From IMG/VR virus record IMGVR_UViG_3300031952_004728, positions 1 through 23,753 of that record: DNA of 23,753 nt, one strand, 5' to 3'. Made by a program: the position numbers and the translations under genes. Within the stretch, counting starts at the first letter, position 1. Each line of letters starts with the position of its first letter. The notes beneath the pieces are model-generated. The model did no database searches, was not told the DNA's origin, and saw nothing but the letters and a program-made list of their open reading frames with translations. This DNA is from a virus. Below, piece by piece: positions 859-19,739 of the stretch.

Positions 859-2262
859 CTAGACTGCTCCCAATGACAGCCGCTGCTCGTAGACGGGCGC
901 TTTGCCGCCAGCCGAGTAGCGCATACTCAGACCGATCACTCGCCGCTGAGCGTTCGTCAGGCCAGCCGACTCGTCGGTGATGGCGATCACGTCGTATAGC
1001 TCCTGGCCGCAGTTCACCGGCACCACGATCTCGCCGCTCCTGGAGGCGATCTCCTGGTGGCGCATCTCGGCGTCGGCCCGGTCTCGGGCGCGAGCGACTG
1101 TGCCCAGGTTCAGGTCATCCACCTGGCGGACGCGGTCGTAGGCATCATCGATCTCATCCCAGCCGAAGGCTTCCACGAAGGGGCCGTCGCCAAACACCTG
1201 CACGCGGTTGGTCTGGGGGCGCTGGCTGCCGTAGCGGCCGCGGAAGATGGCGTGCTCCGTGCCGTAGGAGTAGGCGCTGGCCTCGTCGGCTCGGGGGTTC
1301 TTGATGTAGGCGAAGTGGCCGCGGAAGAAGACAACGTCGGGCACCACGGCCAGCAGGCGACGCACCGCAGTCGCCCCACTCTCGCCCGGGTGAATCGTGA
1401 AGCTGGGGTAAAGGTCAGTGATGACACCACTGCTGCCGGCGCTGAAGAACTCCAGGCTCGCTCGCGCCATGACGAAGGAGAGTAGCTGGAAGACGTTCCT
1501 TTCACCCTGGGCCCAGGCGCACTGACGACGCGACCGCCAGCCCTCCAGCAGCTGCCAGGCGTCGCGGGCGTGGATGACGAGGGTGGCCTCGCCTTCGCCG
1601 GAGGTGTATTCCCACCCCTCGATCCAGTAGGCGAGGCCCGAGGAGACCAGGGGGCCGCTGGCAGTCTGGTAGCCGGGGCTCACTCGCACCTCGCCGCCGG
1701 CCTTGATGACCGCCTTCTCCCCTGACAGGTCCAGGTAGCGACCATCATCATTGCGCAAGACCAGGCGAAGGCGGCCACTGTCGGGATCGGTTTCGGTGGT
1801 TAGCTCTAGGACGTCGGCTGTGACATCCAGTGCGGCCGCAGTGAGAGAGGCCTGCCAGACGCCCGAGGGGGTGGTCAGCCACACGTCGCTCGTGCTATGG
1901 GCGATGGCCAGGCCATAGTCGCTGACCAGATTCATGGGCACTGGCTCTCGCCAGAGGTTATCCGCGTAGTCGGCCGTGGCCAGCGAAAAGGAGAAGTGGG
2001 GGCGGGAATAGCTTTCGCTGCCCGTGTACTTCTCGACGAAGGTGAGGCGAAAGACGTCGGGGTAGGCCAGGGAGGGGGCGCGGAACTCCATGTTGGAGCC
2101 CGCGCTGGCCGTCGCCACCTCCCGCAGGGGTGACCAGGTGCCCACCGCCTGCGAGTAGCCGTCGCCGTAGATGCAGCTCCAGACCTTGCAGGCGCCCTGG
2201 CCGTCGCTGCCCGAAACCACCACGTTGAAGTCGGCCTCATACCGGCAGGCCAGCCCGCTCAC
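859..2262 (-). CDS. Split tail/adhesin gene, C-terminal part
   Basis: This is the 3' part of a large gene interrupted by the element. The frame is open through 2281, directly up to the 11-bp core. The annotated GTG at 2262 is simply a Val codon of the original gene that happens to follow the integrase stop in a GTGA overlap. The 467 residues are beta-rich. An early part is rich in aromatic and Ser/Thr residues (YSRPHFSFSLATADYADN). A later part (LRLVLRNDDGRYLDLSG, then YWIEGWEYTSGEGEATLVIH) resembles phage tail hub or tip proteins. Joining it to the frame at 23200-23753 gives WGSPAAWSNSLASVSGLACR with no stop. Whether the fragment is translated in the integrated state is unknown; it is probably non-functional alone. 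Confidence 0.75.
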   Translation of the reverse strand: MSGLACRYEADFNVVVSGSDGQGACKVWSCIYGDGYSQAVGTWSPLREVATASAGSNMEFRAPSLAYPDVFRLTFVEKYTGSESYSRPHFSFSLATADYADNLWREPVPMNLVSDYGLAIAHSTSDVWLTTPSGVWQASLTAAALDVTADVLELTTETDPDSGRLRLVLRNDDGRYLDLSGEKAVIKAGGEVRVSPGYQTASGPLVSSGLAYWIEGWEYTSGEGEATLVIHARDAWQLLEGWRSRRQCAWAQGERNVFQLLSFVMARASLEFFSAGSSGVITDLYPSFTIHPGESGATAVRRLLAVVPDVVFFRGHFAYIKNPRADEASAYSYGTEHAIFRGRYGSQRPQTNRVQVFGDGPFVEAFGWDEIDDAYDRVRQVDDLNLGTVARARDRADAEMRHQEIASRSGEIVVPVNCGQELYDVIAITDESAGLTNAQRRVIGLSMRYSAGGKAPVYEQRLSLGAV

Positions 2263-3809
2263 CGAGGCCAGGCTGTTGCTCCAGGCGGCGGGTCAAGATT
2301 TTCCCCACCATCTGGGGGTGGGATGACCCCGGGGATGGCACCTTCGATGGTAAGACTACCGTCGTCTTCGACCCACACGCGGTCAATCAGCTTGTGCATC
2401 CCAGGGTACGTTGGTCCGAGCGGGTGACCGAGAAGCGTGTACCCTGCCTTCCCTGCGGTGATGACGCGGGCGAGGCTGCGTAGGTTGTGTACGTAGTGTA
2501 AGAACCTCTCGGCGTCGGGGAAACGTTCCAGATGACTTATCTGGGTCTCGATGTCGGCACGTTCACGGGCGATCCTGGCGACCTCGGCGTCAAGTACCTG
2601 AGAGAATCCGCCCATCCGAACGTAGGTCTTTAGTGCCCGTTCGTGCTGTGAGTCGAGATTGCACAGGAGAGCGCGCAGGCGCTCCTCCACGTCGACCTGC
2701 TGGGTGTCGGCGCTGTATGCCCTTTGCTCATAGGTTACGGCTTCCCTCAGGAGGTTCTCAGGGTCGCCAACCGCTCGCTGCAAGAACTCCAGCACCCGGC
2801 CTTCCAACTCGTCGGCTGGCCAGTGGGTCTTGTAGACGCCCTCGTGAGACGGTGCCAACTCGCGGTAACGAACCCGACTGCCGCACCGATACTTGGCCTT
2901 GCCGCCGCTTTCGGACCCCTTCGTACTAACGTAGTAGAGACTCCCACATCGACGACAGAAGCACTTTCCCTTAAGCGCGTAGACGCCCTTAGGTTTGGGA
3001 CCACTGTGTATCCTACGTCGTTTCAGTGCGCTCTTGGCAGCCATCTGGGTGTCTTCGTCCACGAGTTCGGGGCAGGCCATCGGGCGACCGGCGTAGGTGG
3101 CTTTGCCGGCGTAACGCGGACTCGTCAGGATGCGGTAGACCATGGTGTGGTGCCACCGCTGAGCACGTCGTTCGACGTTCCGGTGGTTTGGCACAGGCAC
3201 GCCGCGTTCTTGAAGCTGGTCGGCGATCTCCTGGATGCCCTCACCTGCGAGGCAGTGGGCGTAGACCCAGCGGACAATGCCTGCCTCCCAGGGGTGGGGC
3301 TCCAGAGCGAGTCCTGAGCTGCGTTGGTAACCGTAGGGCGGAACGTTCGAAATGTAGGCACCCTTTTCCACCGCGCGGTAACGTCCCTCGCCCATGCGCC
3401 GGGCGATTACTTTGCGCTCGAGTGTGGCGACGCCCATCATCATCGTGAACATGAACTCGCCTTCCGGCGTGTCATCGAATGATTGACTTACGAATTCCAC
3501 CACCACCTTGAGTTGTTTGAACTCACCCATCGCCAACAGCGCCTCTACCGTATCGCGTCCCAACCGGTCGGCGCAGTAGACGATGACGTGGTCGAAGACC
3601 TTGTTTGCGGCTGCCTCGAGGAGACGTCGCCCGGCCGGTCGGTCTTTGAGTGCTATCGTGCCGCTGACGCCCTCATCGGTAAACTCGTCGACCACCGGGT
3701 ACCCCTTTGCCTCGGCGAAGTCTCGAGCGTCGATAAGTTGTGTCTCGATGGTGTTTCTTTCAGCCTGGGCGTCGGTGCTGACCCTTGCGTAGATGACGGC
3801 GTTGTTCAT
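2259..3809 (-). CDS. int: Large serine integrase (host-derived C-terminus in this state)
   Basis: This large serine recombinase (516 aa) joins phage and host attachment sites through a Ser-DNA intermediate. The resolvase domain (1-150) has the nucleophile Ser11 in YARVST and the conserved DRLGRD (81-86). The recombinase domain follows (PPYGY 157-161). A zinc-ribbon-like segment has C283, C285, C288 and C309, with no evident fourth partner after YRCGS. A long coiled-coil-like stretch covers about 375-425. The usual family end is near 495. The att core codes residues 506-509 (DPPP), and the last seven (GATAWPR) come from the interrupted host gene. In circular form the frame would continue 54 codons to a stop at 23055, giving 563 aa. 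ATG 3809 follows the stop of the previous gene by 1 bp. Confidence 0.95.
   Translation of the reverse strand: MNNAVIYARVSTDAQAERNTIETQLIDARDFAEAKGYPVVDEFTDEGVSGTIALKDRPAGRRLLEAAANKVFDHVIVYCADRLGRDTVEALLAMGEFKQLKVVVEFVSQSFDDTPEGEFMFTMMMGVATLERKVIARRMGEGRYRAVEKGAYISNVPPYGYQRSSGLALEPHPWEAGIVRWVYAHCLAGEGIQEIADQLQERGVPVPNHRNVERRAQRWHHTMVYRILTSPRYAGKATYAGRPMACPELVDEDTQMAAKSALKRRRIHSGPKPKGVYALKGKCFCRRCGSLYYVSTKGSESGGKAKYRCGSRVRYRELAPSHEGVYKTHWPADELEGRVLEFLQRAVGDPENLLREAVTYEQRAYSADTQQVDVEERLRALLCNLDSQHERALKTYVRMGGFSQVLDAEVARIARERADIETQISHLERFPDAERFLHYVHNLRSLARVITAGKAGYTLLGHPLGPTYPGMHKLIDRVWVEDDGSLTIEGAIPGVIPPPDGGENLDPPPGATAWPR
2282..2292. repeat. Left attachment site core (attL)
   Basis: CAGGCGGCGGG is identical to 23219-23229. 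It lies within the last codons of the integrase (Asp-Pro-Pro-Pro) and in the tail-gene segment Pro-Ala-Ala. The exact crossover dinucleotide within these 11 bp cannot be read from the sequence. Confidence 0.85.
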
Positions 3810-5770: not shown

Positions 5771-6283
5771 GTGGGCAAGCATATCTGTGGCGTAACTCCT
5801 GGATGGTGTGGCAAATGCCGACCGGACGTGGCCGCTGCCCAACGCGGCAAGTCCAAGTCAGTCGAGACACGCGCTAAGATGAGTATCGCTCAAAGGGGAC
5901 CTGGATCACGCGAGCACCATGCAAAAATCGGTGCAGCTCTACGCGGTCGACGCCAAGGCAAAAGGCATCTTGCAAATCGCCTAGACGCTCTTGCTCGCTG
6001 GCATCGAATACATCCGACCAAGTGGGAACAGGCTTTTCGACGCTTGCTGCGCGAAGCCGGGTTTCGCTGCCGCTACGAACGAGTCTTCGGCGGACGCTAC
6101 TCTGTAGATGCTTACGTGCCCTCGCGCAAGATTGCTTTCGAAGCTGACTGCCACTGGGGCCACGAGGAGAAGCGCGAGAGTGGCCAGGAAGAGGCTCGTG
6201 ACGCCTACCTCATGGCCGAACACGGTCTGCTGGCAGTCATTCACTTGACCAAAGAAGACCTCAGACCCTTCTTGACTTCCTAG
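5771..6283 (+). CDS. Vsr/DUF559-type homing endonuclease with NUMOD3 repeats (170 aa)
   Basis: The N-terminal module MGKHICGVTPGWCGKC (Cys 6, 13, 16) is shared with the HNH protein at 13008-13379. Two NUMOD3-like DNA-binding repeats follow (about 25-42 and 44-60, A-Q-R-G and A-A-L-R-G ends). A Vsr/PD-(D/E)XK-like nuclease domain covers about 84-165, with E86 (TKWEQAF), D113 (YSVDAYVP) and E124-x-D126 followed by CHWGH. Such free-standing nucleases cut intronless or genic DNA and spread themselves. The GTG start is supported by the same start in the paralogue and by the conserved promoter element ahead. It is intact. Confidence 0.85.
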   Translation: MGKHICGVTPGWCGKCRPDVAAAQRGKSKSVETRAKMSIAQRGPGSREHHAKIGAALRGRRQGKRHLANRLDALARWHRIHPTKWEQAFRRLLREAGFRCRYERVFGGRYSVDAYVPSRKIAFEADCHWGHEEKRESGQEEARDAYLMAEHGLLAVIHLTKEDLRPFLTS

Positions 6284-6613: not shown

Positions 6614-7300
6614 ATGGCAACATCACTGAAGGAACTTCAGAAGTCATTTGACCGGGTTCAGGCCCTGCAACCGGTCATCGACGAGATGGTCGCTGAGAAT
6701 GGCGACGAAGTGCTATGCAAGGGCACCAATGTCCGAGTCCGCGACGTCGTGCGTGCGTACGAGGAACTGTGCACTGGACTCGCTGAGACAATCATCGAGA
6801 AGACGGCCAAGGGACCCGAACTCGAGACAGCGATCCTTAAGGCTGTTGAAACTATGACCAAGCAGGCAGCCGAGGCTCAGGCACAGGTCTCCGGGCTTCC
6901 CGACGGTTCGTTGTGCATCCAACCCGTCGAGGGTGTGGACCTGAGCACGGCAACGGTTCTGGTTCTCGATGCACCCTCCGCGTCCCTGCTCAAGAAGGTC
7001 GTCGCTGGAATGCTCGCCTGTCTAATGGGCGGGACCGATGACGTTCTCAAGGCGGCAGGTCTTCTGGCTCCCCCAATGAAGGTCGACTACTACGGCAAGG
7101 CCCACGGGTACAGGGGTGCTCCGCATCTTGGCCAGGTCATCGTGACCAAGGTGGACTCTACAGGTCTACGCAAGGCTGCTGGACCGGTGGTACCGGAGGC
7201 CGAACTGGGCGCACTGTTGACGTACCTGAGCCGGGCGGCTCTGAGTACCAAGCGCGGTGCTCAGGTTAACTTGACTGGGGCTGGCCTGGATAGGCGCTAA
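6614..7300 (+). CDS. Hypothetical phage protein (228 aa)
   Basis: ATG 6614 lies behind AAGGAGG, 20 bp after the previous stop. The N-terminal half (1-95) is helical and acidic and probably coiled (ELQKSFDRVQALQPVIDEMV, then AILKAVETMTKQAAEAQAQV). The C-terminal half is an alpha/beta mix ending in a Lys-rich tail (LSTKRGAQVNLTGAG). No catalytic motif or membrane segment is evident. Codon use and spacing are those of a well-expressed gene. I do not recognise the family. Confidence 0.75.
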   Translation: MATSLKELQKSFDRVQALQPVIDEMVAENGDEVLCKGTNVRVRDVVRAYEELCTGLAETIIEKTAKGPELETAILKAVETMTKQAAEAQAQVSGLPDGSLCIQPVEGVDLSTATVLVLDAPSASLLKKVVAGMLACLMGGTDDVLKAAGLLAPPMKVDYYGKAHGYRGAPHLGQVIVTKVDSTGLRKAAGPVVPEAELGALLTYLSRAALSTKRGAQVNLTGAGLDRR

Positions 7301-7318
7301 GAGGAGGGCGCGTACATC

Positions 7319-7666
7319 ATGACAAGAGACGAACTGAAGGCTCTCTGGGACGAGACTCTGGCCAGTTGCAAGGCCAAGCATCCAACGCATTTCCAGATGC
7401 TGGACTCCAAGACCGAGTGGCTCATCCCCCTCGCCGACGGCGATCTGATTCTGGCTCGCTGCCGGATCTGCCAGTCGTTGATTATCGGCTGTCTGGGACC
7501 GAGCGACGGACTTCCCGACCCGGCTCGCATGATGAGTCGTTCCCACATTCCGAGTCCGTGCGGGTACTGCAAGCCTGTGATGCTGCCGGCCGGTGGAATG
7601 AAGTTGCAAAGTCTGCGGTATGCGCATGCAGCAGGGCAACATCTGGGAACCGGAGGCCGAGTCTGA
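7319..7666 (+). CDS. Zinc-ribbon hypothetical protein (115 aa)
   Basis: Two CxxC knuckles (C48-x2-C51 in RCRICQ and C81-x2-C84 in PCGYCK) with 29 residues between them indicate a zinc ribbon. The N-terminal 45 residues are helical (MTRDELKALWDETLASCKAK). ATG 7319 has GAGGAGGG about 10 nt ahead. Its stop (TGA 7664-7666) overlaps the likely start of the bS21 gene as CTGA. A role in nucleic-acid binding is plausible but not shown. Confidence 0.7.
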   Translation: MTRDELKALWDETLASCKAKHPTHFQMLDSKTEWLIPLADGDLILARCRICQSLIIGCLGPSDGLPDPARMMSRSHIPSPCGYCKPVMLPAGGMKLQSLRYAHAAGQHLGTGGRV

Positions 7667-7884
7667 GTCGCGACAGACGTCCCGTCGAGGGACCTCTTGA
7701 GGTCCAAGTCGATGGCAACCTAGAAGCGGCACTACGAACCTTCAAACGTATGACTGCGTCGGTGATGTTGGAACTGAAGCGTCACGCGTTCTACACGTCA
7801 CCCAGCGATAGACGCCGGCGAAAGATTCGACAGGCCATCCGCAAGCAGCAAAAGAGGAACAGAGAACATGCGTACATTGACTAG
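7663..7884 (+). CDS. rpsU: Ribosomal protein bS21 homologue
   Basis: Residues 12-62 follow bS21: VQVDGNLEAALRTFKR, VMLELKRHAFY, then PSDRRRRKIRQAIRKQQKRN. This is the basic helical protein of the 30S subunit that acts at the anti-Shine-Dalgarno region during initiation. Phage-borne bS21 copies are known and are thought to compete for host ribosomes. The frame has no nearby ATG, GTG or TTG. The best start is CTG 7663, overlapping the previous stop as CTGA with CGGAGG 6 nt ahead, giving 73 residues. A +1 frameshift from a short upstream ORF (ATG 7626 to TGA 7700) is an alternative. The 3' end overlaps the next gene by 17 nt. Confidence 0.8.
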   Translation: MSRDRRPVEGPLEVQVDGNLEAALRTFKRMTASVMLELKRHAFYTSPSDRRRRKIRQAIRKQQKRNREHAYID

Positions 7885-8230
7885 AACAATACCGCTGGTC
7901 GGTGACCCCGGGGCAGCAAGTGGAATCGTTGTCTTCGGTACACCGCCAGCAAAATTACACGGCATCCAGGTTCGTTATCACGAGCAGCCACAGTCTACGT
8001 GTCTCACGGTCATGTCGATGCTGAACGGACTGGAGAAGACAATTCTCACGCTCACTGAGCACAACGACGCCATGCCTCTTCAGTCGGTTGGCGAGTCTGT
8101 GTTGGATGACCTAGGGGCACCCACCGAGGTGCTGGTTCCGCCGATAGTGACAGGCACAATCATCGTGACGGTAACCGCCGGTAACCCGGACCCAGTTGGC
8201 GTGCATGTGACTCTCGTAATCGAGAATTAA
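7868..8230 (+). CDS. Beta-rich hypothetical, possible virion protein (120 aa)
   Basis: ATG 7868 lies inside the end of bS21 with AGAGGAA upstream. The protein is beta-rich. It begins with a Gly/Ala/Ser segment (LVGDPGAASGIVVFGTPPAK) and ends in long strands (GTIIVTVTAGNPDPVGVHVT). Such C-termini occur in small head-decoration or fibre proteins, but this is pattern-level only. No catalytic residues or signal peptide are evident. It ends against the antisense HNH gene, sharing 4 bp. Confidence 0.65.
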   Translation: MRTLTRTIPLVGDPGAASGIVVFGTPPAKLHGIQVRYHEQPQSTCLTVMSMLNGLEKTILTLTEHNDAMPLQSVGESVLDDLGAPTEVLVPPIVTGTIIVTVTAGNPDPVGVHVTLVIEN

Positions 8231-8583
8231 CGAGTCCAGCAATGGTAGCGGTTGTGTTCACGCTTAAACATCGGGGCCAAGTTCTCGGGGCGGTCATCGG
8301 TGTGAATCCCGTTGATGTGGTGAATCACGAACCAGGAGTGCAGAAGGTGATGATGAGTGAACTCCCAGATCAGATGCGAACGCATGACATAACCGCTCTT
8401 GTTGGTGTAAGGATGCTGGGGACAGAATATCCTCTCCCCCTTGCCGCTATTTCGTTTCCAAGAAGGTTTTCCGCGCGTGGCGACGCTGATAATGACACTC
8501 ACATCTGGTTGACAAATGCAACAACAGGGGTGTGCCTTACCACAGGACTTAACCGAGTAGTCTTGTTTAGTTCTGGTTCCCAC
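8227..8583 (-). CDS. HNH homing endonuclease (118 aa)
   Basis: The N-terminal Cys module (C14, C20-C22, C24 in CGKAHPCCCICQPDVSV) is related to that of the 5771 and 13379 proteins (CGxxxxxCxxCxPE/D). The catalytic HNH motif is HHINGIHTDDRPENL (H88-H89, N91, N101) with a final H110. CPQHP and GYV before it are shared with the 13008-13379 protein. The gene is antisense within a plus-strand run, as expected for an inserted mobile gene. GTG 8583 is the start by comparison with its paralogues and lies 5 nt after TATAGT. Confidence 0.85.
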   Translation of the reverse strand: MGTRTKQDYSVKSCGKAHPCCCICQPDVSVIISVATRGKPSWKRNSGKGERIFCPQHPYTNKSGYVMRSHLIWEFTHHHLLHSWFVIHHINGIHTDDRPENLAPMFKREHNRYHCWTR

Positions 8584-11034: not shown

Positions 11035-11183
11035 GCACCCGAAAGCCAGGACAGCGCGACCCCAAGGCACCGGACATCCCGACGTCCCCGACGCCCATGG
11101 ATGATGCCACTCGAGAAGGCATCCTGAGGTACCTGGGACGCCATGACGTAGGACCGATGACGAGCAAGGATAAGAGACAATGA
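11031..11183 (+). CDS. Small hypothetical protein (50 aa)
   Basis: This 50-codon gene is coupled at both ends by ATGA overlaps, with the HTH gene before and the collagen-like gene after. It is Pro/Asp-rich at first ([20 protein letters not shown]) and ends basic ([10 protein letters not shown]). Support is positional and there is no recognisable motif. The two exact overlaps make it very likely translated. Confidence 0.65.
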
Positions 11184-11854
11184 GAGCACCGACACGGGTG
11201 GAACATTTGCGACGAAGTGGCACACGCGGACACGTTGATGACGAGCCTGTGACCTACGTTCAGCGTGCGCCGGCAACCCCAATGCAGAAGGCGACGACGA
11301 GCGAGGCAGCGGACCTGCTGAACGCCCTAAACGAGTTTCTGGCCGAGGCGAAGGCGGCTGCGGCGACCATCCAGGAAGAGCGAGTACAGCGAGTCGAGCG
11401 CGGCGAGCGAGGATTCCCCGGTCCACCCGGCAAGAGCATCGTCGGTCCACCCGGCCCACCCGGTGAGACCATCGTTGGTCCACGAGGCGAGAAGGGCGAC
11501 AGCATCGTTGGTCCGAAGGGCGAGAAGGGCGACAGCGTTGCTGGTCCACCCGGCCCTTCTGGCCCACCTGGCAAGACCGTTGTTGGACCGAAGGGCGACA
11601 AGGGTGACCCAGGACGTGGCAACATCAGCGTGTTCGGTGGCGGGGGCTTTGCGGTAGACAAGACTCCTCAGCCAGGCGACGTCGTGATCCGTGGCGAACG
11701 GCACCAATGGACAGTCATCCCCAAGACCGAACTGATAGCGAGCGGGGAGGGCATCCTCTCAGATCCCCCATCCGGGTGCTGTCGGGTACTGAACATCTAC
11801 AGAGACGAAGACGGAAAACTGGCTGTTGCCTATGAGGACGTTCCGGTCGAATGA
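11180..11854 (+). CDS. Collagen-like phage protein (224 aa)
   Basis: After a helical, probably coiled-coil segment (about 43-72), residues 75-148 carry Gly-X-Y collagen repeats ([19 protein letters not shown] and similar). They are interrupted at regular places by a five-residue step ending in Ile-Val or Val-Ala. A globular C-terminal domain of about 75 residues follows ([20 protein letters not shown]). Coiled coil, collagen trimer and C-terminal head is a common plan for phage fibres and some bacterial adhesins. It would form trimers. The ATGA start and ATGA stop show tight coupling to both neighbours. Confidence 0.85.
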
Positions 11855-13007: not shown

Positions 13008-13379
13008 TTAGAGGGGGTAGCCAGTGTGTTGTCGTAAGGCCTCGTGATAGTGATGATGCACTGAATCGGTGGGGAAAAGTGTGAAGTTCTCGATTCGATC
13101 ATCATCCTTGATTCCGTTTCGGTGGTGGACAATTTCTTCTCTTGTCAAGAACCGTCCCAGGTGGAACTCCATGACAAGACGAGAGCGGCAAACATAGCCC
13201 GTAATCCTAGCATGAGGATGTTGTGGACATCGAATGTGGGCACGGCCATTACTGTAAAGGAGTCCGCCCCGCCAATGAGGATTCTTGTTGCCATGACGCT
13301 TCTTGCCTTGGGCGACGCTGATCTCAGGATGACAAGTTCCGCACCAGCCGTTAGTTACGCCACAGATATGCTTACCCAC
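13008..13379 (-). CDS. HNH homing endonuclease (123 aa)
   Basis: The N-terminal module MGKHICGVTNGWCGTCHPEI is nearly the same as in the 5771 protein, and the first 27 nt differ at one base only. Here it is fused to an HNH domain: CPQHP (51-55), GYVCRSRLV, then HHRNGIKDDDRIEN (H85-H86, N88, N97) and H110. It cuts DNA as an HNH nuclease by family knowledge. GTG 13379 is the start, supported by the paralogue and by TATAGT six bases upstream. It stands antisense to the gene before it and looks intact. Confidence 0.87.
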   Translation of the reverse strand: MGKHICGVTNGWCGTCHPEISVAQGKKRHGNKNPHWRGGLLYSNGRAHIRCPQHPHARITGYVCRSRLVMEFHLGRFLTREEIVHHRNGIKDDDRIENFTLFPTDSVHHHYHEALRQHTGYPL

Positions 13380-17101: not shown

Positions 17102-17374
17102 TCATCCTTGTGCCCCAGATATGTTCTCGGGCGTCACCAGTACAGGGTCGCCAACATGCACGGACACGCCGACGAGCTTCTTGCTCTGCGTCATGATGTC
17201 AACCGCCACGATCAGTCGGTGTCTGCGGATCGGCGCGGTCCACTTGCGCAGTCGGGCGGCTTGCTGGCGATGGGCGACGTTGACGTATTTCTTACGCTTG
17301 GAATAGTCTGGCTGGAGGTCAAGTCTCTCTTGGCAACCACATGCACAGTACTTTTTACGTCTTCCTTTTGGCAT
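17102..17374 (-). CDS. Cys/His-containing hypothetical protein (90 aa)
   Basis: The N-terminal motif [12 protein letters not shown] (C10, C12, C14) followed by [17 protein letters not shown] is a small metal-binding pattern seen in short phage proteins. The C-terminal half is beta-rich ([20 protein letters not shown], then [12 protein letters not shown]). ATG 17374 has GAGGAGGG at about 8 nt. It is the first gene of the minus-strand block and is divergent from the cassette island at 17.58 kb. Function unknown. Confidence 0.65.
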
Positions 17375-17731: not shown

Positions 17732-18076
17732 ATGCATGATATCGTGACGAACGCCCTCCCGCTTGGAGGGGGCGTGGTGGTCGGAGGAGTCATAACCCTC
17801 GTCAGTTCATGGGTTTTCTACTGTAGGACTGCCAAGGATCTGGAGCGTGAGGCGGCGAAGCTCAGAAGGCAGAACACACTGATGCTGCGTGTTATGGAAG
17901 AAGGCGGGTTAGCCGAATTGAATCAAGACGAATCCGGCGAATTCACCGGTATCATTTTCAAAGGAGGCGCGTGCCTGAAGGGTCGCGCGTCCCTGAGGGC
18001 CTCGGGGACGGTGGTTGAGGGCCAGCGGTCGTCAGTGGGAGCACCGGATCAAAGCATCGGCAATCAGAATGGCTGA
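17732..18076 (+). CDS. Membrane-anchored coiled-coil protein (114 aa)
   Basis: Residues 8-30 form one membrane helix (ALPLGGGVVVGGVITLVSSW). A charged coiled-coil-like segment follows (CRTAKDLEREAAKLRRQNTL, 31-50, continuing to about 57). The C-terminal half is Gly/Ser-rich and beta-like (GIIFKGGACLKGRASLRASG). GGAGGAG lies upstream of ATG 17732. This plan (short N-terminal anchor, coiled coil, Gly-rich tail) recalls small proteins I know from Chloroflexota genomes, from memory. It overlaps the methyltransferase start by 8 nt, so the two are coupled. Confidence 0.65.
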   Translation: MHDIVTNALPLGGGVVVGGVITLVSSWVFYCRTAKDLEREAAKLRRQNTLMLRVMEEGGLAELNQDESGEFTGIIFKGGACLKGRASLRASGTVVEGQRSSVGAPDQSIGNQNG

Positions 18077-19739
18077 ACTAAAGACCAACGTCCTCTACTA
18101 TGGCGACAACCTAGACATTCTGCGGAATCACATCCCGCACGAATCGGTAGACCTTATCTACCTTGACCCACCGTTTAACTCCAACCGCTCGTACAACGTG
18201 CTCTTCCGCGAATCCGGCGGTGCGAGCAGCGAGGCGCAGATCGAGGCGTTTGAGGACACCTGGCGGTGGGGACCGACGGCGCAGGGAGCCTACGAGGAGG
18301 TTATGACGGGGCCGCATCAGCAGGTGGCGCGGACGCTGCGAGCGATGGTGGACGGCCTGGGCCACAATGACGTCACCGCCTACCTGAGCATGATGGCCAT
18401 CCGCCTGGTGGAGTTATACCGGGTGCTGAAGCCTACCGGCTCGATGTACCTGCACTGCGACCCGACAGCCGGACCGTACCTGCGGGTGCTTATGGACAGT
18501 ATTTTCGAGGTCAAACGCTTCCGTAACGAAATCGTCTGGAAGCGCACCCACGCACACAGCGGAGCCAATCGTTTCGGTGCCGTCCACGACACGATCCTGA
18601 TGTATGGAAAGTCCGAACAGGGGACTTGGAACATTCAGACAACCGCATACAGCGCACAATATTCCGAGACATTCTTCCGGTTCGCCGACGATGATGGGCG
18701 ACGGTATCGCTCGACCATCCTCACCGGTTCCGGGATTCGACACGGGGCATCCGGGGAGCCGTGGCGCGGGATTGACCCGACCGCATCGGGCCGCCACTGG
18801 GCGATTCCCGGATATGTGCGACCGCTTCTCGGCGATGCCGCAGATGCTGATGTGCAGGGTGCTCTTGACCGTCTTGATTCGATAGGTCGCATCCTCTGGC
18901 CGTCCAAAGCTGGCGGAATCCCCTCGTTCAAGCAATACATCGATGACATGGCGGGCACGCAGATCAACGATGTCTGGACCGATATACCGCCCATCTCGGC
19001 ACAAGCTAAGGAGCGACTGGGTTATCCCACTCAGAAGCCCCTTGCGCTCTTGGAGCGCGTCATCACCGCATCGTCGAACCCCGGCGACGTCGTGCTCGAC
19101 CCGTTCTGCGGCTGCGGTACCGCTGTGCACGCCGCCCAGAAGCTCGGCCGCTGCTGGATCGGCATCGACGTCACCTATCTGGCCATCAACCTCATCGAGC
19201 GCCGCATGACCGACGCCTTCCCAGGCCTGGCAGTGGAGGTAGAGGGGGCTCCGAAGGACTTCGCTAGCGCCCGCGATCTGGCCCACCGCGACAAGTGGCA
19301 GTTCCAGTGGTGGGCGCTGACTAGACTAGACGCGCAGCCAGTTGCGGGAAAGAAAAAGGGCTCGGACAAGGGCATCGACGGTGTCATCCCCTTCTTTGCC
19401 GGTCCCAAGGAGGACTATAAACGAGTGATCGTCTCGGTGAAGGGCGGCGAACACGTCAACGTGGTGATGGTGCGCGACCTGAAGGGTGTCCTAGAACGCG
19501 AGAAGGAGTCCATCGGCATTCTCCTGACACTCGCGCCGCCCACCAAGGACATGGTCACGGAAGCAGCGGCGTCGGGATTGTATAACAGTGAGTTCTGGGG
19601 TCGTAAGTTTCCGCGGCTCCAAATCATGACAATTGAGGAAATGCTCGGCGGCAAGAAGCCAGACATGCCCTGGGGCAAAGTCCCGTTCGCCAAGGCACCG
19701 ACGGAAAAAGAGAGGGGCGAGCAGGAGACTCTACTATGA
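18069..19739 (+). CDS. Beta-class DNA methyltransferase with fused Mrr-like nuclease domain (556 aa)
   Basis: Motif IV LDPPFNS (32-38) precedes TQKP (321-324) and motif I DPFCGCGTA (344-352). This order marks a beta-class N6-adenine or N4-cytosine methyltransferase. After about 405 an Mrr/PD-(D/E)XK-like domain follows: DKGIDGVIPF (D437), VIVSVKGG (S456-V-K458), then VRDLKGVLEREKESIGILLT and TLAPPTKDM. Proteins with this fusion are thought to both modify and cut DNA, or to sense modification. ATG 18069 is chosen because an upstream extension only overlaps the 17732 gene; start and stop overlap as ATGGCTGA. The stop overlaps the micropeptide start (ATGA). All key residues look present. Specificity is unknown. 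Confidence 0.92.
   Translation: MAELKTNVLYYGDNLDILRNHIPHESVDLIYLDPPFNSNRSYNVLFRESGGASSEAQIEAFEDTWRWGPTAQGAYEEVMTGPHQQVARTLRAMVDGLGHNDVTAYLSMMAIRLVELYRVLKPTGSMYLHCDPTAGPYLRVLMDSIFEVKRFRNEIVWKRTHAHSGANRFGAVHDTILMYGKSEQGTWNIQTTAYSAQYSETFFRFADDDGRRYRSTILTGSGIRHGASGEPWRGIDPTASGRHWAIPGYVRPLLGDAADADVQGALDRLDSIGRILWPSKAGGIPSFKQYIDDMAGTQINDVWTDIPPISAQAKERLGYPTQKPLALLERVITASSNPGDVVLDPFCGCGTAVHAAQKLGRCWIGIDVTYLAINLIERRMTDAFPGLAVEVEGAPKDFASARDLAHRDKWQFQWWALTRLDAQPVAGKKKGSDKGIDGVIPFFAGPKEDYKRVIVSVKGGEHVNVVMVRDLKGVLEREKESIGILLTLAPPTKDMVTEAAASGLYNSEFWGRKFPRLQIMTIEEMLGGKKPDMPWGKVPFAKAPTEKERGEQETLL

Follow-up and report, generated by a model that had tools for sequence, protein, structure and literature searches.

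The bS21 gene of a virus-borne mobile element lacks a standard start codon and probably begins at CTG 7663, which overlaps the stop codon of the preceding gene and follows a well-placed Shine–Dalgarno (SD) sequence. The gene lies in a stretch of 23,753 nucleotides (IMG/VR virus record IMGVR_UViG_3300031952_004728, positions 1 to 23,753), here called the window. The features around its start are as follows.

7319–7666 (+), upstream gene, 115 aa, with two CxxC pairs
7620–7700 (+), off-frame open reading frame of 26 codons (ATG 7620 or 7626), without an SD and coding-like only to ~7661
7652–7656 (+), GGAGG SD sequence, 6 nt before CTG 7663
7663–7665 (+), CTG, proposed start codon, in a 4-nt overlap (CTGA) with TGA 7664–7666
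7663–7884 (+), bS21 gene, proposed CTG start to TAG, 73 aa, PF01165, relatives L002 and L003
7868–8230 (+), downstream gene, 120 aa, overlapping the end of bS21 by 17 nt

Identity of the bS21 product

The plus-strand frame that contains bS21 is open for 196 codons (7294–7884), with bS21 in the last ~60 codons. The product matches PF01165 (E 3.8e-11, 43 bits), exceeding the curated Pfam cut-off of 27 bits, and also matches the PHROG for ribosomal protein S21 and many solved bS21 chains. Its core is intact, with no stops and with the key residues retained. An AlphaFold2 model of the 73-aa protein contains helices at residues 20–40 and 47–72 at moderate confidence (pLDDT 75); a Foldseek search with this model gave no PDB match, and little was to be expected of two bare helices. 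The proposed N-terminal extension, MSRDRRPVEGPLE, is shorter than those of phage bS21s, and the protein is two residues shorter between the helices than its relatives. Codon 7690 aligns with a glycine that is shared with several phage bS21s and located a few residues ahead of the V-x-V motif, which indicates that translation begins upstream of that codon.

Candidate start codons

In the bS21 frame, ATG, GTG and TTG are absent between TTG 7366 and ATG 7750, which bears out the first-pass annotation that the gene has no standard start codon nearby. ATG 7750 is internal and lies inside the first helix. Initiation at TTG 7366 is implausible: it would place 99 codons across the well-supported upstream gene in another frame, and the 20 codons of frame 1 that precede 7663 have a score of −6.9 bits in the codon-usage analysis described below. 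CTT 7696 was likewise rejected; it is not a table 11 start codon, and the shared upstream glycine would be lost.

CTG 7663 stands out by its SD. Pairing energies with the 16S tail were computed for the gene starts of the window and for the bS21 candidates. The GGAGG duplex ahead of CTG 7663 reaches −9.5 kcal/mol, a value attained or bettered at ~2% of random positions and as strong as that of several standard genes of the element; for 0.4% of random anchors, an in-frame CTG with an SD of this strength lies no more than 25 codons away. The values for ATG 7620 (−0.5 kcal/mol), ATG 7626 (−3.0 kcal/mol) and ATG 7750 (0.1 kcal/mol) amount to no SD. The gene has the sequence features expected of a CTG-started gene, namely an in-frame CTG, a properly spaced SD and no standard start. 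RNA structure over 7600–7720 is unremarkable (z −1.2), and Rfam gave no match.

The upstream gene is itself well supported, with an SD of −12.5 kcal/mol and a codon score of +22 bits to position 7600, and its TGA overlaps the CTG. An overlap of −4 nt is the commonest in prokaryotes and is linked to termination–reinitiation (PMC10666635); the CTGA at 7663–7666 has this geometry, as expected of a termination–reinitiation coupled pair. The element contains two further 4-nt overlaps, at 11851–11854 (ATGA, +) and at 17102–17105 between minus-strand genes. CTGA alone is weak evidence because any TGA in such a relative frame yields an NTG overlap, and the weight of evidence for CTG 7663 rests on the SD. 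Even the combination is by itself no proof of a start, since CTG 4321 (−) likewise has CTGA and a strong SD, yet ATG 4328 is the probable start of that gene. The first-pass annotation had already placed CTG 7663 in a CTGA overlap with CGGAGG ahead, at coordinates that are correct, and the reading of this CTG as the start draws support from how strong and well spaced the SD is, from the overlap geometry and from codon usage.

Proposed mechanism of coupled initiation

From this geometry, which can be read directly from the sequence, we infer that the likeliest mechanism is a weak CTG start translationally coupled to the upstream gene. Ribosomes would end the 115-aa gene at TGA 7664–7666, leaving GGAGG 7652–7656 free to hold the 30S subunit, and re-initiation with fMet would follow at the CTG overlapping the stop. 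Because re-initiation would take place on a stop-overlapping CTG, bS21 output would be coupled to the upstream gene and probably low. A single substitution in an ancestral ATGA, GTGA or TTGA may have given rise to the CTG.

A precedent is the rep gene of IncFIB plasmids, for which N-terminal analysis and mutation proved that translation starts at a CTG with a good ribosome-binding site (PMC11983097). Both are mobile-element genes with a CTG and a good ribosome-binding site, and the weak start of rep is thought to keep expression low; rep differs in encoding a replication protein and in having a proven start, that of bS21 being proposed from the sequence. Several observations count against the CTG model. 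Very few genes start with CTG (20 of nearly 85,000 annotated; PMC11983097), CUG is poorly initiated by tRNA-fMet (PMC11497404), and a CUG with an SD in Caulobacter dnaA was toeprinted yet is unused in vivo (PMC8443254). ATG starts at all 15 related phage bS21 loci also speak against it. A bS21 gene with a CTG start, though rare, varies themes that are already known, namely phage or mobile bS21 and rare CTG starts.

Relatives of bS21

The nearest relatives, in L002 and L003, share 46% identity and have TTG as their probable start. A search with an alignment brought up 15 phage bS21 loci, all with ATG starts and mostly with N-terminal extensions of ~20–35 residues. In five phage contigs (L009, L010, L011, L017 and L018), bS21 begins in an ATGA overlap with an upstream frame of 404 codons, the end of which is ClpX-like in look (TGARGLQTE). 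Phage-encoded bS21s (PMC6375957, PMC9723584; L009–L023) resemble the present one in the PF01165 domain, the N-terminal extension and, in some, the 4-nt overlap upstream. They differ in their ATG starts and in belonging mostly to lytic phages, whereas the gene described here sits on an integrating element that encodes a serine recombinase. Temperate signature genes were found in 3 of 1,310 surveyed bS21 viruses (PMC6375957), and bS21 on integrating elements is unusual. No close relatives of the bS21, the 115-aa protein, a 228-aa protein or ParB were found in viral contigs, and phage and plasmid protein searches returned no bS21 relatives.

Codon usage and alternative explanations

Codon-usage scores were trained on 21 window genes with leave-one-out. 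Usage switches to the bS21 frame at ~7660: the bS21 frame scores +2.0 bits over 7663–7701, and frame 0, the frame of ATG 7626, scores −6.75 bits over 7662–7697. Frame 0 scores +7.9 bits over 7620–7661, and 12-codon scores of at least 7.7 occur in 0.3% of off-frame windows; the CTG model leaves this signal unexplained. It may be due to chance, to which the GAG codons of the SD would contribute; alternatively, it may be the trace of an indel. The coding-like codons of frame 0 extend over 7602–7661 (+) (SCKVCGMRMQQGNIWEPEAE) and include a CxxC; a start signal is absent.

Because this coding-like stretch lies just upstream of bS21, an indel near 7600–7700, whether an assembly error or a real mutation, has to be considered; bS21 would then in truth continue the frame of either ATG 7620/7626 or the 115-aa gene. 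We regard this as quite improbable. The coding-like codons do leave frame 2 for frame 0 at ~7600, and frame 0 for frame 1 at ~7660, but the full signal would require two indels within 60 bp. ATG 7620/7626 have no SD. A single indel would create either a 75-nt off-frame overlap or a fusion unlike other bS21s, and related bS21s include no such fusion. No second copy of the bS21 locus was found for comparison. The first-pass annotation had instead raised a +1 shift at TCT-TGA (7695–7700), entered from a 24-codon frame that runs from ATG 7626 to TGA 7698–7700. That frame exists, together with an overlooked in-frame ATG at 7620, and the layout of a 24–26-codon reading frame, a TGA, a +1 frame and an SD-like GAGGG just upstream recalls the RF2 (prfB) cassette (PMC5009743); a programmed shift of this kind in bS21 might be regulatory. 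The specifics do not fit: the leader frame has lost its codon signal before the shift site, its ATGs have no SD, UCU to CUU re-pairing is mismatched at the first position, and the TGA is followed by G (UCU-UGA-G), a position nearly always occupied by C at RF2 sites. With codon usage, slippery re-pairing and following base all at odds with an RF2-type cassette, an RF2-like frameshift is barely credible here.

A different possibility is that the start at 7663 was ATG, GTG or TTG and that the CTG reflects a recent mutation, a mixed consensus or a base error, in which case bS21 would be attenuated, or the oddity would be absent from the living element. CTGA is one change away from the common ATGA, GTGA and TTGA overlaps, the SD and the overlap are already in place, and relatives use ATG or TTG; the bS21 core is nevertheless intact and free of stops, and assembled contigs seldom contain base errors. 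This explanation deserves attention but is unlikely. That bS21 is a remnant, translated from no upstream start or from ATG 7750 only, would accord with the missing standard start codons and with the two residues fewer between the helices. We consider it extremely unlikely, given the intact reading frame and key residues, and given that a start at ATG 7750, besides lacking an SD, would remove the conserved strand at the N-terminus along with half of helix 1. Initiation at CTG 7663 is the likely reading.

Possible autoregulation and significance

Since bS21 affects initiation, a near-cognate coupled start would make its synthesis depend on the state of the host ribosome. Autoregulation of bS21 via its unusual start is speculation, and it seems very unlikely that the CUG would be a control device kept as such, with the bS21 of the element made from a near-cognate, coupled start. 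An analogue is infC, which has an AUU start and is controlled by its own product, IF3. In Flavobacterium, rpsU is controlled by bS21 through an extended SD (PMC9976891). The two bS21 genes share a clear SD, but that of Flavobacterium rpsU pairs at below −13 kcal/mol, and SDs are mostly ignored in that lineage, whereas the −9.5 kcal/mol found here is ordinary for the element. If CTG is truly used, this would be a rare case of natural CTG initiation overlapping an upstream stop, with a product that acts in initiation, and the autoregulation idea would become testable. Gene callers limited to ATG, GTG and TTG would trim bS21 to 44 codons or miss it; as a consequence, mobile-element ribosomal proteins may be under-counted.

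The mobile element carrying bS21

The bS21 gene lies within an inserted element delimited by the following features.

2259–3809 (−), large serine recombinase (PF00239, PF07508, PF13408), last codons beyond the left att core
2282–2292, left att core CAGGCGGCGGG, 11 bp
2293–23218, inserted mobile element, 20,926 bp, carrying bS21, missing from L004 and L005
23219–23229, right att core CAGGCGGCGGG, 11 bp

In L004 (96–98% identical) and L005 (88–90%), window position 2292 is joined directly to 23219, and a single open frame spans the junction. Both window junctions carry the 11-bp core, and each empty site has one copy. A major head protein gene lies nearby in L004. These empty sites identify 2293–23218 as an element inserted in a phage structural-cluster gene, and the mobile-element label that the first-pass annotation had attached to bS21 was right. 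As in serine-recombinase integrative elements, the recombinase lies beside an att core and relatives hold the empty site. The recombinase gene extends beyond the left att core (2259–2292), so its last codons are host-gene-derived and would change on excision; the only relatives found for it are about 22–33% identical. The records L004–L008, all fragments, contain no bS21.

The element splits a long structural-cluster gene (empty counterpart L004 3964–5946), and excision might restore that gene, as with other gene-splitting elements. It also encodes a ParB-like protein and a DNA methylase, the latter (18069–19739, +) combining PF01555 with a C-terminal Mrr-like nuclease-fold domain (weak PF04471/PF22722). 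Three putative homing-type endonucleases, at 5771–6283 (+), 13008–13379 (−) and 8227–8583 (−), have Cys-rich N-termini, which in two of them read GKHICGVTxGWCGxCxP and follow GTG starts; their C-termini differ and are nuclease-like (NUMOD3; HNH_3). A collagen-like protein of Gly-x-y repeats is encoded at 11180–11854 (+).
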